Assembly: GCA_027623315.1 (NCBI GenBank)
Contig: JAQBYD010000004.1
Coordinates: 1 to 64,000, forward strand
DNA from: Verrucomicrobiota bacterium
Lineage (GTDB): Bacteria > Verrucomicrobiota > Kiritimatiellia > CAJWTS01
Length of the DNA stretch: 64,000 bases
Direction of reading: 5' to 3'
The position numbers and the translations under genes are program-made. Of this stretch, positions 34,991 to 47,424 are shown piece after piece. The notes beneath the pieces are model-generated. The model made no database searches. It worked only from the letters and a program-made list of their open reading frames with translations, and was not told the DNA's origin. Every line of letters begins with the position of its first letter. The first letter of the stretch is position 1.

Positions 34991-36046
34991 ATGAAAATCG
35001 ACATCGCATGTGGCGGGACCGGTGGGCACCTCATTCCCGGACTGGTGACCGGTGAGGAGTTGCAGCGGCGCGGGCATGACGTGACCCTTTGGCTGACCGG
35101 GCGCGAGATCGAGAGCGCCATGATCCAGGGGTGGCGCGGAGGTAGCGAAATCGTGTCGGGTCGTGGACTCCTCGCCGCTGTGCGCGCCGTGTGGGTTTGC
35201 CGCGGCAAGATGCGCGCGCGGCGTCCGGATGTCGTGCTTGCGATGGGAGGATACGGATCCATCGGGCCGACGGTGGCGGCGAAGCTTCTCGGCTGTCCGG
35301 TCGTACTGCACGAGGCCAACGTGATTCCAGGGCGTGCCGTAAAGTTTATGGCCCGGTTTGCGTCGGCCGTGGCCGTGGCGTTTGAGGGCGCCGTGGGTCG
35401 ACTCAGGCATTCCAATCTTACCGTCACGGGGATGCCGCTCCGGCCCGGTGTCGTTCCAGTCGCCGAGGGTGAGTGCGCGTGGCCGTCCGTCCTTAAGGAA
35501 CGCGGATTAACATCCGGGAAGTGGACCTTGCTCGTCCTCGGCGGAAGCCAGGGGGCGCATCGGTTGAACACGCTGATTCCAGCCGGCGTCGCCGCGGTTA
35601 GAGAAGAGGGCAGGGGGTTGCAGGTCGTTCACCTTGCCGGTGCCCGGGACCTCGCTGCGGTCGAGAATGCTTATCGCGACCTCGGGATCCCCGCCGCCGT
35701 ATTCGCCTTCCATGAGAAGATCGAGGAGCTCTACGCGGCGGCGGACTACGCGGTGTGTCGCGCCGGGGCGGCCACCTGCGCCGAGTTGCAGGCGTGCGGT
35801 CTTGCGGCGTTGCTGATTCCGTACCCGCACGCGCAGGACAATCACCAACTGGCGAACGCGCAGGCCATCGCCGAGCCTGGCCACATTGAGATCGCGCTCG
35901 AGACAACACTCAGTGAGGAACAACTGGCCACTATTCTGGGCAAGCGCGTCCGCGCGGCGAAGACGGACCGCGAAGCGGGATTTGCAGCCGGCCTGCATCG
36001 CGACGCCGCTCAACGCTTGGCGAGCCTCGTCGAGACCGTGAAATAG
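34991..36046 (+). CDS. murG: UDP-GlcNAc-undecaprenyl-MurNAc-pentapeptide transferase
   Basis: Adds GlcNAc to lipid I to make lipid II at the inner face of the membrane. The 351-residue protein shows the N-terminal G loop (CGGTGGHLIPGL), GGYGSIGP, the HEANVIPGRA motif and the second-domain VLGGSQGAHRLN and RAGAATCAELQACG. In most bacteria murG lies inside the dcw cluster between ftsW and murC. Here it stands alone, about 7 kb upstream of mraZ, and diverges from ligA. Confidence 0.95.
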   Translation: MKIDIACGGTGGHLIPGLVTGEELQRRGHDVTLWLTGREIESAMIQGWRGGSEIVSGRGLLAAVRAVWVCRGKMRARRPDVVLAMGGYGSIGPTVAAKLLGCPVVLHEANVIPGRAVKFMARFASAVAVAFEGAVGRLRHSNLTVTGMPLRPGVVPVAEGECAWPSVLKERGLTSGKWTLLVLGGSQGAHRLNTLIPAGVAAVREEGRGLQVVHLAGARDLAAVENAYRDLGIPAAVFAFHEKIEELYAAADYAVCRAGAATCAELQACGLAALLIPYPHAQDNHQLANAQAIAEPGHIEIALETTLSEEQLATILGKRVRAAKTDREAGFAAGLHRDAAQRLASLVETVK

Positions 36047-36058
36047 TCGGACAGGTAG

Positions 36059-36295
36059 ATCGAATGCCGGCGCGGGTTCTATGCCTACGGCGGGCGCATG
36101 CAGTCCAAAGACGCGCTGGCTTTCTTCGATTCGACCGGCAACTCGCCCTACGCCAGCCTGATGCAGGCGCTGCGCGCTTTCGTCGTGGACGGTACGGTGC
36201 CCGTGTCTTTGTCCGAAGCCCAGGAAGTGATGGCGATCCTCGAGGCCGGCGAGCAGGCGGTAGCAACTGGCGATCCGGCTGCCGTCACGCCCTGA
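36059..36295 (+). pseudogene. C-terminal remnant of a Gfo/Idh/MocA-type oxidoreductase
   Basis: The frame YAYGGRMQSKDALAFFDSTG, then NSPYASLMQALRAFVVDG and SLSEAQEVMAILEAGEQA, matches the C-terminal end of the Gfo/Idh/MocA sugar oxidoreductase family. An in-frame stop lies directly upstream and no start or NAD-binding domain is present, so only about 79 codons survive. It lies between murG and the second MITE-like element. Confidence 0.55.
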
Positions 36296-36351
36296 CGCGA
36301 GCCGAGTCCTAAATTCCGCCGTCGACGGGCTGCTCCTGTCTCTCCAAATTC

Positions 36352-36532
36352 TAGCCCGGATATCTCACCCATTTCCTACTACGAACACGGATAGCTCCGT
36401 CAGGCTTGATCGAAACAGGGCTTCGCCAATTCACTGTATGTCCATACAGTTTCATCGGCAAAGCCCTGTTTCGATCAAGCCTGACGGGCTCTTCGCGCTC
36501 TCGCTACGAAAAAGTGTGAGATGTCCGGGCTA
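36352..36532. mobile_element. 181-bp palindromic MITE-like element, copy 2
   Basis: Inverted relative to copy 1 at 16593-16773, of identical length, with TA on both flanks and about six differences by eye. One of the differences near the loop replaces a G.T mismatch by a T-A pair, so the hairpin is kept. It lies beside the oxidoreductase remnant, just as copy 1 lies beside a domain remnant. Confidence 0.85.
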
Positions 36533-36571
36533 GATTCTACGGCGTGTTGCCCAAATCACGAAGCACACTTT

Positions 36572-36655
36572 CCAGACCGCCTAAAGGCGGAACTACGAGC
36601 TGGGTTTCGAGCGAATCATAAGGTTTGTAGTTCCGGCTTCAGCCGGTCCGCTGCT
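36572..36655. repeat. REP-like palindromic unit
   Basis: Two small hairpins, CCGCCTAAAGGCGG near 36577-36590 and CCGGCTTCAGCCGG near 36633-36646, flank inverted copies of the word GTAGTTCC. The arrangement resembles REP/BIME-type repeats. No gene is visible here. Confidence 0.45.
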
Positions 36656-36689
36656 CGTGTCCCACCGTCGTGCCCCCCAGTCGTGTCCC
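36655..36689. repeat. 13-base-period repeat (GGGRCACGAC family), copy 2
   Basis: On the plus strand TCGTGTCCC, TCGTGCCCC and TCGTGTCCC begin at 36655, 36668 and 36681, exactly 13 bases apart. It is the reverse-complement form of the array at 32021-32058. Confidence 0.65.
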
Positions 36690-36738
36690 GATCTGCTTGC
36701 GCCGACGTACTGTGCGAAATACTGTTGGGGTCTTGCGT

Positions 36739-37122
36739 CTATTCAAAATGACATTCAATAATACGCTCGATATAGGGAAGTTCGGCCAATGCCTGAAGAA
36801 CATCCCGATAGTCTTCTCTGGTAGAACCAATGCAAAGACATTGATTTTTGTTCGCACCAATTCTTCCTCTGGATCCTGGGCTGAATTGAACCGTGCGATC
36901 GATGGCATGGACCTCTGCTTTGCATTGGTCAGTGTTCGGAATGCAAAACTCATAGGATATCGAAACCTTTCCGTCAGCCGGACCACGTAATCCGTCTTGA
37001 TCCAGTACGCTCAAGTCGATCTCAACTTTTTGCAATGCGTTGTTTGCATCGGGTTTTCCGGTGGTAGTGCAGGATGTGGCAAACACCAAGAGCCCGGCCA
37101 GGATAAGGCAATAATATTTCAT
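36739..37122 (-). CDS. Small hypothetical lipoprotein
   Basis: 127 residues with a lipoprotein signal peptide whose lipobox reads FATSC, so the mature protein should be membrane-anchored through Cys18. The mature part has four further cysteines (FCIPNTDQC ... CLC) and ends ELPYIERIIECHFE. No family is recognised. Its DNA is visibly more AT-rich than its neighbours, a possible sign of transfer. It stands alone between a repeat zone and gmhB. Confidence 0.65.
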   Translation of the reverse strand: MKYYCLILAGLLVFATSCTTTGKPDANNALQKVEIDLSVLDQDGLRGPADGKVSISYEFCIPNTDQCKAEVHAIDRTVQFSPGSRGRIGANKNQCLCIGSTREDYRDVLQALAELPYIERIIECHFE

Positions 37123-37180
37123 CTGTACTTCCTCACGCTTCTATCCCGGGGCACAACCCCGCCACTCACGACGTTTCAGA

Positions 37181-37765
37181 TCAGGAGTTCTTCACCCGCT
37201 CGAGAATCAGCGCTGTTGCGTCGTAGAGATCGGCGCAGATGGCGTCGGGGGTGATGTCGCCGTCGATCTCGGGGGCCGGGCCGCTTCCGGACTCGACGAG
37301 GATGCTGTAACAGCCGGCGGCCTGGCCGGCCATGATGTCGCGCATACGGTCGCCGACGAGATACGATTTCTGCAGATCGATTCCGTGCCGGCGCTTCGCC
37401 TCGAGCAGCATACCGGGCTTCGGTTTGCGGCACGCGCAGTCGATGCGGTACTCGCCGACCCCTGCGGTGGGGTGATGCGGACAGTATAGGTAGTCATCGA
37501 TACGCGCACGCCCTCCGCTCTGGTCGCGCAAGGCTTCGAAATACTGCCCCGTGAAGAGGGCGAACTCTTGCGGCGTACACATGCCACGCCCGAGACCGGA
37601 CTGGTTGGTGACGATGATCACGCGAGCCTCGTCGCGCGGCAACACCTGGTTGAGTAGGGCAAGGGCGTCGAGCGAACGCGGAGAAAATCGAACGTCTTCC
37701 ATGCGCAGCACGTACTCGGCGTCCTCATTGATCACACCATCGCGATCGAGAAAGATGCCGATCAT
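37181..37765 (-). CDS. gmhB: HAD-family phosphatase, GmhB-like
   Basis: 194 residues resembling D-glycero-D-manno-heptose 1,7-bisphosphate 7-phosphatase, a step in ADP-heptose synthesis for lipopolysaccharide. HAD motif I is FLDRDGVINED, motif II VTNQSG, and motif III/IV KPKPGM ... LVGDRMRDI. The zinc loop CPHHP ... CAC is present, which is typical of GmhB. It is preceded on the same strand by a TIM-barrel gene that overlaps it by 4 bases. Confidence 0.85.
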   Translation of the reverse strand: MIGIFLDRDGVINEDAEYVLRMEDVRFSPRSLDALALLNQVLPRDEARVIIVTNQSGLGRGMCTPQEFALFTGQYFEALRDQSGGRARIDDYLYCPHHPTAGVGEYRIDCACRKPKPGMLLEAKRRHGIDLQKSYLVGDRMRDIMAGQAAGCYSILVESGSGPAPEIDGDITPDAICADLYDATALILERVKNS

Positions 37766-42507: not shown

Positions 42508-43425
42508 ATGCATCGCCCGGTGATGCTTCAGGAACTGCTCAACGAGCTGAACGTTGAAACGAGAAAGGTATTTATCGATGGAACGGCGGGACACGGCGGA
42601 CACGCAAGAGGGATCCTCGAGCGCAGCCCGGGTGTACGGATGCTCCTGGTAGATCAAGATGATGACGCACTGGAAATTGCGCGAGTCGCACTGCAGCCCT
42701 GGGCATCGCAGTGTGTCTTCGTGCGTTCGAACTTCGCGGAGTTGGAACGTGTGGCGCACGAGCACGGGTTCAAGGATGCCGACGCGGTACTGCTCGACCT
42801 TGGAGTCTCCTCGGGGCAACTCGATCAGCCGGAACGAGGATTCAGTTTCATGAGTGACGGACCCCTGGATATGCGGATGGACCGGCGTGCAGCGCGGACG
42901 GCCGCGGACGTGGTCAACACGTTCGACCGAAGCGAATTGGTCGAGATCATGCGCTCGCTTGGTGAGGAGCGTGCGGCTGGACGGGTCGCGAGCGCTATTG
43001 TCCGCGAGCGCGAGAAAGAACCGATTGAGACCACGGGGCGACTGGCCGACATCGTCGCTCGCGCCAAGGGCGGACGACGAAGTCGAATTCATCCGGCGAC
43101 GCAGGCTTTCCAGGCCATCCGTATGACGGTGAATCGGGAATTGGAGAGCCTGGAGAGCGGACTTGATGCGTCGCTGAACGTTTTGAAGCCGGGCGGAGTC
43201 ATTTCAATAATCTCGTTTCACAGCCTGGAAGACCGCATGGCGAAGCATTTTCTGCGCGATCATGAGGGCCGCTGGGAGTCGCAGCCCGAGGGCGGCCGAA
43301 CCTGGCGCGGCGCGACTCCGGCCGTTCGACGATTGAACCGGCGGCCCTTGCGCGCCGCCGAAGAGGAAGTGGCAGACAACCCGCGGGCCCGGTCCGCAAA
43401 GCTGAGGATGGCCGAACGAATATGA
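42508..43425 (+). CDS. rsmH: 16S rRNA (cytosine-1402-N4) methyltransferase
   Basis: RsmH (MraW) methylates C1402 of 16S rRNA. The 305-residue protein starts MHRPVMLQELLNEL and shows the SAM-binding FIDGTAGHGGHARGIL, DAVLLDLGVSSGQLDQPERGF, and C-terminal ISFHSLEDRMAKHF. Second gene of the dcw cluster, 13 bases after mraZ. Its stop overlaps the next ORF by 4 bases. Confidence 0.96.
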   Translation: MHRPVMLQELLNELNVETRKVFIDGTAGHGGHARGILERSPGVRMLLVDQDDDALEIARVALQPWASQCVFVRSNFAELERVAHEHGFKDADAVLLDLGVSSGQLDQPERGFSFMSDGPLDMRMDRRAARTAADVVNTFDRSELVEIMRSLGEERAAGRVASAIVREREKEPIETTGRLADIVARAKGGRRSRIHPATQAFQAIRMTVNRELESLESGLDASLNVLKPGGVISIISFHSLEDRMAKHFLRDHEGRWESQPEGGRTWRGATPAVRRLNRRPLRAAEEEVADNPRARSAKLRMAERI

Positions 43426-43610
43426 ACTACCAGGTCATAAATCGAGAAAATACGATGATCGCGACAGGGCGGGATCTGTCGGGGGAGATTCGCATGAAAA
43501 TCCGGTCCGGTATTGTCGGCCCCGGTAGCAGGCCACCCGTCGTGCGCGTGAAGCGCGCAACGCCGGAATGTGTGAAGTACATGGATCTCTTCAAGTACAG
43601 CATGAATTGA
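43422..43610 (+). CDS. 62-residue ORF coupled between rsmH and ftsL
   Basis: The ATG overlaps the rsmH stop (ATGA) and its own TGA overlaps the first ATG of the ftsL-like gene (TGATG), so both junctions look like translational coupling. The peptide is basic (several Lys/Arg, e.g. PPVVRVKRATPECVKYMDLF), with no signal or membrane segment. I know of no standard dcw gene here. It may be a real small protein or a coupling device. Confidence 0.55.
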   Translation: MNYQVINRENTMIATGRDLSGEIRMKIRSGIVGPGSRPPVVRVKRATPECVKYMDLFKYSMN

Positions 43611-44023
43611 TGGATTCGTGGGAAGTGGGACTAGCAATGGCACGGCGTAAGACTCGAAAGCGCAATACGAAGATGGACTCCTCGTACCTCTTGCCGCCAC
43701 CGGCGCTTGCCGTGGTGATCCTGGCCTCGATTATGGCGCTGGCGTACATCTCTGTAGGGGAGCGCTGTGAAGATCTCGGACGCGAGGTCTCCCGGCTTGA
43801 GCGTGATCTTGATGCCAAGCGCAAGGTGCTTGGCAACGAGCAAAGCAAGTGGCAGCGACTCAAATCGAAGCCACAGGTAGAGTTGGCACTCAAGGCCTTT
43901 GGTCTTGAGATGGATTGGCCGCAGCAGAACCAGGTCTTGTACCTGGTGCGGCGGCCGTGGGGGCAGGCGGGCCAATTGGCCACTGCCAATCAGAGCGCGA
44001 CATGGGGACAGGTCGCAAATTGA
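43610..44023 (+). CDS. ftsL: FtsL-like septal protein
   Basis: 137 residues from the coupled ATG at 43610, or 128 from the ATG at 43637 (MARRKTRKRN). A basic N-terminus is followed by one transmembrane helix (ALAVVILASIMALAYI) and a coiled-coil stretch (CEDLGREVSRLERDLDAKRK), the layout of FtsL, which with FtsB/FtsQ activates FtsW-FtsI. Assignment rests on topology and its place between rsmH and ftsI, since FtsL sequences diverge. Which start is used is unsure. Confidence 0.72.
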   Translation: MDSWEVGLAMARRKTRKRNTKMDSSYLLPPPALAVVILASIMALAYISVGERCEDLGREVSRLERDLDAKRKVLGNEQSKWQRLKSKPQVELALKAFGLEMDWPQQNQVLYLVRRPWGQAGQLATANQSATWGQVAN

Positions 44024-44038
44024 GAAATCCCATGAGTC

Positions 44039-44092
44039 CTGAACCCTCACCAGGTTCCTCTCTCCGCTTCGGCGGCGAGAGGGGTGAGGGGG
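44039..44092 (+). repeat. Nested hairpin between ftsL and ftsI
   Basis: CCCTCACC and GGTGAGGG enclose a second stem built on CCTCTC/GAGAGG around CCGCTTCGGCGG. It has no T tract, so it might tune read-through or mRNA processing inside the cluster. Confidence 0.45.
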
Positions 44093-44111
44093 CAGGCCCT
44101 GGGGAGGCAGC

Positions 44112-45842
44112 ATGACAGAAGAGCAACCCGTATCGGCGTGGCGATGCTATTCGGTCACCGGATCGATGCTCCTGGTCATGATCGGCCTGTCTGTGCGACT
44201 TGCGCACTTCCATTTCTGGGTCCCAGATGCGAATAGGCAGGAACTGCGGAGTCACCGCACCGTGGTGCGTCACGCCCTCGTCCGTCGCGGTGCGATCCGG
44301 GATCGAAACGGCGCTCGCAACATCCTCGCGATGGACATCAACGTGAAGGATGTCTGCGCGGACCCCTACATTATTCACAAACGCAGCGCGGTGCACGACG
44401 TCTCGATGATGCTGGGAGGTATCCTGGAGATCGAACCGAGCACAATCCTGGAGTGCCTCGACGATCCTTCGCGGCGCTTCGCCTACGTTCGCCGATTCGT
44501 CGATGAACGCGTCGCTAATCGCGTCGGAGCGTTTGGCTTTGAGGGCATTTTCTTCCAGGAAGCTTCCGTCCGGCGCTATCCGCAGGACTCCTTGATGTGT
44601 CATGTGCTGGGCTTCGCGAATTACGCCGGCTATGGCGGCGCCGGCGTTGAGTTGTCCATGGATCGTTACCTGCGTGGAAGTCCGGGCGAGATCGTGACGG
44701 AGGTCGATGGTCTGCGCCATGACCGGTATCTGCGCCGGACCATGGCGGTTCCGGCCCGAGACGGGGCACACGTCGAGTTGACGCTTGACCAGACCATCCA
44801 GTACTTCACGGAAGAGGCGTTGGGCAATGCGGTCAAAGCACATTTCGCGCGTGCCGGCTGCGCCATCGTGATGCGCGTGCAAACGGGCGAGATCCTGGCG
44901 ATGGCCAGCTATCCGGCTTTCAATCTGAACGAGTTCACCACGGCGGACCCGAATGCCATGTTGAATCGCGCGATCGCCTCGGTCTATGAACCAGGATCTA
45001 CGATGAAGGCGCTTGTCATTGCGGCGGCGATGAACGAAGGCCTCGTCAGTGATACAACACCTATCGATTGTGAAGACGGGGCCTGGTCGCACCATGGGCG
45101 CATCCTGCGCGATCATGGACATCGCTACGGTACGATTCCCGTAGCGGACGTGTTGCGGAAGTCGAGCAATATTGGCGCCGCGAAAATATCGCTCATGCTC
45201 GGCCCGCAAAAATTCTACGACTACACGCGCCAGTTTGGCCTTGGCAAGTCCCTGAAATTGGATCTTCCGGGAGAGGAAGCCGGGATCCTGCATCACGTCG
45301 ACCGTTGGACGGGCATCAGTTGCAGCCGAATCGCCATCGGGCAGGGCGTTGCCGTGACCCCTCTGCAGATGTTGAGCATCTACAACACGATTGCCAATGA
45401 AGGCAGAATGATGAAACCGCGTGTTGTGCGGCGTGTCCTCGGCAGAGAGGGTAACGTAGTGCTTGAGAACAAAGCCGAGGTGCTCGCGACGCCCATCAAC
45501 CCACATGTTTCGCACACGATGTGGGAATTGCTCGCGCGCGCGACCGAAGAAGGCGGCACCGGCAAGCGGGCCAGGATCGACGGCATGCGTGTGGCCGGCA
45601 AGACCGGCACGGCACAGAAACCGGAGAACGGCGGATACTCCGACACCAACTACATGGCATCTTTCGTGGGCTTTGTTCCGGCCGAGAGTCCGGAACTGAG
45701 TCTAATCGTGGTGATCGACGAGCCGCAACCGCGTCACAGCGGTGGGTACGTCGCTGCACCTGTTTTCAAGCTTATTGCGGAGCAGGCAATCCGGTACCTC
45801 CACCTCCCTGCCAGCCCCTACCAGGTTGTCTCCCGCATGTAG
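44112..45842 (+). CDS. ftsI: Septal peptidoglycan transpeptidase (class B PBP)
   Basis: A 576-residue class B penicillin-binding protein for septal cross-linking. One N-terminal membrane anchor (VTGSMLLVMIGLSVRLAHF) precedes the dimerisation region (RGAIRDRNG) and the transpeptidase domain with SxxK (YEPGSTMK), SxN (KSSNIG) and KTGT (GKTGTAQKPENGGY). No PASTA domains. GGGGAGG precedes the ATG. Place between ftsL and murE supports FtsI rather than an elongation PBP2. Confidence 0.94.
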   Translation: MTEEQPVSAWRCYSVTGSMLLVMIGLSVRLAHFHFWVPDANRQELRSHRTVVRHALVRRGAIRDRNGARNILAMDINVKDVCADPYIIHKRSAVHDVSMMLGGILEIEPSTILECLDDPSRRFAYVRRFVDERVANRVGAFGFEGIFFQEASVRRYPQDSLMCHVLGFANYAGYGGAGVELSMDRYLRGSPGEIVTEVDGLRHDRYLRRTMAVPARDGAHVELTLDQTIQYFTEEALGNAVKAHFARAGCAIVMRVQTGEILAMASYPAFNLNEFTTADPNAMLNRAIASVYEPGSTMKALVIAAAMNEGLVSDTTPIDCEDGAWSHHGRILRDHGHRYGTIPVADVLRKSSNIGAAKISLMLGPQKFYDYTRQFGLGKSLKLDLPGEEAGILHHVDRWTGISCSRIAIGQGVAVTPLQMLSIYNTIANEGRMMKPRVVRRVLGREGNVVLENKAEVLATPINPHVSHTMWELLARATEEGGTGKRARIDGMRVAGKTGTAQKPENGGYSDTNYMASFVGFVPAESPELSLIVVIDEPQPRHSGGYVAAPVFKLIAEQAIRYLHLPASPYQVVSRM

Positions 45843-45960
45843 CGGCGTGTGTGCAAACGCACGCCGTAATACCTGCGGCCGACCATGGTCTGCGCCCGTG
45901 CGCCCTCACGGCCGGACCTGGCGGTCGCGCTCTTTTTTTAAGGTTAGGAGGAGGCCGGCG

Positions 45961-47424
45961 ATGGAATTGGTTGAACTGCTCCGTGTGATCGAGCCTTCGA
46001 GTATCGAGGGTTCCGCTCACCTCCAGATCGAGGGAGTCGAGAGCGATTCCCGTCTTGTTCGAGAGGGATTTCTCTACGTCGCGATCCCCGGCCGCCAACA
46101 CGAGTCGAACGCTTTCGTCCACGATGCCGTCGAGCGCGGTGCGACCGCGATCGTCACCGAGCGACCGATGTCGGGTCTGCGGGAGGTAGCCGTCATCCAG
46201 GTTGCAGACTCGCGCGCAGCACTTGCCAGCCTTGTGGCCCGGTTTTTCGGCTACCCCGCCGAGGCGATGACTTTGCTCGGGGTCACTGGAACCAATGGCA
46301 AGACGACCACGACGCACTTGATCGCGCAGGTCCTTGAGGCGGCGGGGTTGAAGACGGGGCTGATCGGGACGATTCAATACCGCATTGGTCGACGAACCAT
46401 TTCGGCCACGCGCACGACCCCCGAGCCCGTGGAACTCTACCGGTTGCTCAGCGAGATGAGGGATACGGGATGCGAAAATGTGGTGATGGAGGTATCCTCA
46501 CATGCGATCGATCAGAAGCGCATCGCGGGCCTTCCTTTCAAAGTGGCGGCGTTCACGAACCTCAGCCGCGACCATCTTGATTATCACGAAACGACGGAGT
46601 CGTACTTCGAGACCAAGGCCAGGTTCATTCGAAGTGTCGCTGAGCGGGCGGATTCAAGCGTTGTGCTCAACACCGACGATGCGCGGATCCGGTCGCTTGC
46701 GGCCGGGGGCCTCCCCCTGGGAAGTTGCATCCGCTACGGGCTGGGACCGGATACCGACGTCCGTGCCGAGGAGATTCAGTCGAGCGCGGAGGGGAGCCGT
46801 TGCCGGGTACACACTCCCTGGGGCAGCCAGGATCTCTCTGTGCCGCTGCCGGGAGACTTCAACCTGTCAAACGCGCTGGCGGCCCTGGCCTGTTGCGTTC
46901 TCGCCGGGATCCCGCTGGATTCCGTGCTCGCAGTGCTCGATCGCGCGACGACGGTGCCGGGTCGAATGGAGGAGGTGTCCACCGAGCGCGGATTTCGCGT
47001 CATCGTGGACTACGCTCATACGGATGATGCCCTGTCGAATGTCTTGCGAACGCTAAAGCAACTGGAGCATAACAGGTTGATCCTGGTCTTCGGATGTGGC
47101 GGGGATCGGGATCCCTCGAAGCGCCCGGTGATGGGAGGCGTGGCTTCGGAACTGGCGGACCATTCGATTATCACGTCGGACAATCCACGCGGCGAGGACC
47201 CGGCGGCTATCATCGAGCAGATTCAGACCGGGTTCAGCGAAACGAGTGCCTTCGAGTCGGTCGAAGATCGTCGCACGGCGATTGCTCGTGCGATCGGAAT
47301 GGCGGAGCGCGGTGACATCGTGCTGGTGGCTGGAAAGGGACATGAAAATTTTCAGGACTTCGGAACGCGAGTCGCTCCCTTCGATGATCGGGCGATCGCG
47401 CGCGAAATACTTGCAGGTACATAG
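45961..47424 (+). CDS. murE: UDP-MurNAc-tripeptide synthetase
   Basis: Adds the third amino acid to UDP-MurNAc-L-Ala-D-Glu. 487 residues from the ATG at 45961, which has a strong AGGAGGAGG. The Mur-ligase ATP loop is GVTGTNGKTTTTH. The substrate-specifying motif reads DNPR (TSDNPRGEDP), typical of meso-diaminopimelate-adding enzymes, so the cell wall is likely of the m-DAP type. About 120 bases lie between ftsI and this gene. Confidence 0.95.
   Translation: MELVELLRVIEPSSIEGSAHLQIEGVESDSRLVREGFLYVAIPGRQHESNAFVHDAVERGATAIVTERPMSGLREVAVIQVADSRAALASLVARFFGYPAEAMTLLGVTGTNGKTTTTHLIAQVLEAAGLKTGLIGTIQYRIGRRTISATRTTPEPVELYRLLSEMRDTGCENVVMEVSSHAIDQKRIAGLPFKVAAFTNLSRDHLDYHETTESYFETKARFIRSVAERADSSVVLNTDDARIRSLAAGGLPLGSCIRYGLGPDTDVRAEEIQSSAEGSRCRVHTPWGSQDLSVPLPGDFNLSNALAALACCVLAGIPLDSVLAVLDRATTVPGRMEEVSTERGFRVIVDYAHTDDALSNVLRTLKQLEHNRLILVFGCGGDRDPSKRPVMGGVASELADHSIITSDNPRGEDPAAIIEQIQTGFSETSAFESVEDRRTAIARAIGMAERGDIVLVAGKGHENFQDFGTRVAPFDDRAIAREILAGT

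Follow-up and report, generated by a model that had tools for sequence, protein, structure and literature searches.

Is the 62-codon ORF found between the rsmH and ftsL genes of this dcw cluster translated, and is it a new division gene, a device acting on FtsL, or a young ORF carried on inserted DNA? The features of the window (the whole 64,000-nt stretch of DNA that was analysed) that bear on this question are the following:

42508..43425, + strand: rsmH (mraW), 305 aa, ending at the conserved C-terminus (NPRARSAKLRMAERI*); Pfam Methyltransf_5, E 1e-101, and relatives' C-termini
43422..43610, + strand: orphan ORF of 62 aa; ORF list, codon statistics, without homologue
43426..43636, no strand: lineage-specific spacer of 211 nt from rsmH to the homology-defined ftsL start; junction survey of 46 relatives
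43637..44023, + strand: ftsL with the homology-favoured start MARRKTRKRN..., 128 aa; alignment with relatives' FtsL, SD comparison
44112..45842, + strand: ftsI (PBP transpeptidase), 576 aa; Pfam Transpeptidase, E 3e-74

Boundaries of the small ORF and the start of ftsL

The small ORF opens with ATG and is translated in the ORF list of the window as MNYQVINRENTMIATGRDLSGEIRMKIRSGIVGPGSRPPVVRVKRATPECVKYMDLFKYSMN. Its ATG overlaps the TGA of rsmH (43423-43425), giving ATGA at 43422-43425 as the earlier note had described, and the A of its own TGA (43608-43610) is also the first letter of ATG 43610, which lies in the ftsL frame (TGATG). Among the long ORFs chosen in the window, ATGA was found at 7 of 53 ends and TGATG at 2 of 53, and 9% of the dinucleotide shuffles of the small ORF remain open; the product of these three rates (our own arithmetic) gives a joint chance of both overlaps and an open frame of about 5e-4 per junction. 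The claim that the two-sided overlap is unlikely by chance therefore stands for one junction, with many junctions available from which it could have been picked. On the start side ATGA is ordinary in the class, ftsL itself beginning at exactly -4 in 14 of the 46 relatives.

The downstream end had been read as lying within the ftsL start, which is borne out for the TGATG overlap but not for ATG 43610 as the true start of FtsL. The alignment with relatives' FtsL begins at MARRKTRK, i.e., at ATG 43637, and in many relatives FtsL opens with MA[KR] and then has a similarly long basic stretch ahead of the membrane segment; a start at ATG 43610 would add nine residues (MDSWEVGLA) that have no counterpart in the relatives. 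SD pairing is lacking at ATG 43610 (-0.2 kcal/mol) and weak at ATG 43637 (-4.9, with 22% of random sites reaching as much). Upstream, the frame of ftsL continues open to 43529, and the FtsL_2 match of the ftsL product is weak (E 0.01, under the Pfam cut-off). To judge from these sequence comparisons, FtsL probably does not start at ATG 43610; homology and SD favour 43637, and the coupling is therefore probably one-sided, with a gap of 26 nt ahead of ftsL, although reinitiation at 43610 may occur.

The junction in relatives and the inserted segment

The kin set comprised 57 genomes, with rsmH located in 52 (the window's own genome counted), and the junction was measurable on both sides in 46 clusters of relatives, all of the same class. 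The distance from the rsmH stop to the ftsL start ranges from -26 to +23 nt in these relatives (median -4, n = 46) with one exception, a single outlier at -152 that is an artefact of start choice; in this genome it is 211 nt. The small ORF is absent from the rsmH-ftsL junction in all 46 measured relatives, with ftsL intact there. This includes the nearest relative (G001), a member of the same family and the sister row in the RsmH tree (support 97), although its RsmH is only 57% identical to that of this genome; its rsmH and ftsL overlap by 17 nt, which leaves no space for the small ORF. In L155, L158 and L159 ftsL was missed by the FtsL search, and the next ORF after rsmH begins at -14 to +3 nt. 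A contig from the rumen is nested within the class in the RsmH tree; the class itself may be Kiritimatiellia.

The proposal of a new small division protein is not supported by this survey, as the relatives examined all lack the whole segment yet have an intact ftsL. Conservation of length and frame in related dcw clusters had been suggested as the check; the segment is absent altogether, which goes beyond the mere broken frame that had been named as a refutation.

In a Planctomycetota contig (L126:3921-4103), the end of rsmH is overlapped by an ORF of 60 codons whose stop lies just ahead of a LysM-like gene of 365 aa in the ftsL position; by eye, this ORF shows no sequence resemblance to the small ORF of the window.

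Several sources of the inserted segment were considered and rejected. The insert has no second copy in its own genome, as a repeat or mobile-element fragment might, and at its edges inverted repeats were lacking and the sole direct repeat, of 11 nt, is attributable to chance. A structured RNA was not indicated (no Rfam match; fold z = 0.10), nor was there a match to an internal promoter. Three consecutive junctions are expanded in this cluster, i.e., rsmH-ftsL (211 nt), ftsL-ftsI (88 nt) and ftsI-murE (118 nt, measured to the murE ATG at 45961), and the corresponding values in G001 are -17, -8 and about +9 to +21 nt. The loosening of junctions in this lineage thus extends beyond the small ORF, and this speaks for an ordinary origin.

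The two other expanded gaps have features of their own. The ftsL-ftsI gap (44024-44111, 88 nt) forms a strong hairpin (z = -3.3) that does not belong to a repeat family in its own genome; in the relatives these two genes overlap or nearly so, the largest gap being 48 nt. Two strong hairpins (z = -3.0) lie in the ftsI-murE gap (45843-45960, 118 nt); seven consecutive T come after the second, an arrangement resembling an intrinsic terminator or attenuator within the dcw cluster.

Coding signal and homologue searches

The window itself served to train the codon statistics. The small ORF has a GC content by codon position of 0.50/0.42/0.71 (window genes: 0.64/0.46/0.75) and a codon log-odds of 0.23 bits per codon, compared with 0.14 for rsmH, 0.19 for ftsL and 0.25 for ftsI; the remaining five frames of the same stretch score lower (0.005 down to -0.56). 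Its codon score was equalled by 1 in 6000 dinucleotide shuffles and its GC3 contrast by 2 in 6000, and the window's 60 ORFs of this size class (60-70 aa) include only two that rank above it. Harder controls were less clear-cut: about 7% of off-frame open stretches match the codon score, as do about 5% of the windows outside called genes, a set that still includes some real genes and in which 28% of the windows are open. The codon use is therefore gene-like, with only moderate contrast against off-frame open stretches, the hardest of the controls. Because of this gene-like codon use and the ATGA start position, the small ORF is probably translated, in agreement with what had been proposed for it.

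Elsewhere in the window, an ORF of 65 codons at 36098-36295 (high coding score of 22 bits, within the stretch 36046-37181, most of which has no assigned gene) is possibly another small gene.

No convincing homologue of the small ORF was found in its own genome, in 346 genomes of the class and 388 of the phylum, or in phages, plasmids and viral contigs, and no convincing match was obtained in Pfam, NCBIfam, PHROGs or the PDB sequences. The few weak matches all fall in unrelated proteins: a hypothetical protein of 199 aa in G051 (E 0.0012) and an acyl-CoA-synthetase-like protein in G472 were not convincing, and in G409 a protein whose N-terminal stretch is GntR-like reached E 1.2e-4, for a single genome out of 388. 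By eye, residues 20-41 (GEIRMKIRSGIVGPGSRPPVVR) resemble the start of a GntR helix-turn-helix, and no Pfam family was matched at E<=1. Single-sequence structure prediction of the product was of low confidence and not usable (mean pLDDT 46.8), and inspection of the sequence revealed no hydrophobic stretch of membrane-segment length. A frameshifted RsmH tail or FtsL head was rejected because rsmH runs to its conserved C-terminus, FtsL begins with its conserved N-terminus, and the small ORF, rsmH and ftsL lie in three different frames. Among the publications searched by title or abstract, none reported a comparable ORF.

A probable young orphan ORF ahead of ftsL

We consider it rather probable, on the codon and junction evidence, that the small ORF is a young orphan ORF within a lineage-specific insertion of about 200 nt, translated from the rsmH-coupled start and bridging the spacer ahead of ftsL. 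As its codon use and position suggest, ribosomes ending rsmH would reinitiate at the overlapping ATGA, the place at which relatives start ftsL itself and which would now feed ribosomes into the small ORF. Translation would stop at 43610, and the likely FtsL start at 43637, with 26 nt in between, would then be used by the same ribosomes or by fresh ones. The main effect would be to keep the inserted DNA covered by ribosomes, limiting polarity on ftsL-ftsI and allowing both genes to be expressed; the peptide may be of little consequence in itself, or may serve a purpose private to this lineage. The expanded ftsL-ftsI and ftsI-murE junctions were counted in favour of insertion and bridging.

An untranslated spacer, whose frame stayed open by chance in a moderately GC-rich insertion and whose ATGA is a coincidence or a remnant of the ancestral ftsL start, seems unlikely. 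The open fractions given above (9% of shuffles, 28% of windows outside called genes), the frequent ATGA at the rsmH stop of relatives and the lack of a homologue are all consistent with it, but the codon score and GC3 contrast, so rarely reached by shuffles (1 and 2 in 6000) and, for the score, by about 5% of windows outside called genes, argue against it. It is distinctly doubtful that a newborn small protein or coupling leader, inserted at rsmH-ftsL in one lineage, controls the amount of FtsL. An improbable alternative is a lineage-specific coupling device setting the FtsL level, in which reinitiation at TGATG 43610 would yield FtsL with nine added residues in proportion to small-ORF translation; the overlap is exact and its ATG lacks an SD, as expected for reinitiation, yet homology and the SD-like stretch point to 43637, relatives do without any such device, and the ftsL frame is also open farther upstream.

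That the small ORF encodes a new small division protein beside its partners is very improbable: its location within the dcw cluster and its coding signal would fit, whereas its absence from all measured relatives, the nearest included, with ftsL intact, the lack of a match to any family or solved structure, the low-confidence structure model (mean pLDDT 46.8) and the lack of a hydrophobic stretch of membrane-segment length speak against it. The small ORF is probably a lineage-private orphan gene and not a new conserved division gene, and it adds none to the cluster. If translated, it would be a clean example of an orphan ORF born within a tightly packed operon, at a place where relatives couple rsmH to ftsL, and would show a young ORF carried by pre-existing translational coupling.

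Taxonomically restricted small orphan ORFs are described from bacterial genomes, for example from E. coli O157:H7 (PMC4683798, PMC4765031). Like those, the small ORF is short, has no homologues in relatives and shows coding-like features; it differs in lying at the boundary between two genes of a cluster, where its start overlaps the upstream stop as ATGA. Compared with the usual rsmH-ftsL ATGA junction of dcw clusters, it overlaps the rsmH stop just as ftsL does in 14 of 46 relatives, whereas here it is the small ORF that the ATGA opens, with ftsL moved 211 nt away.
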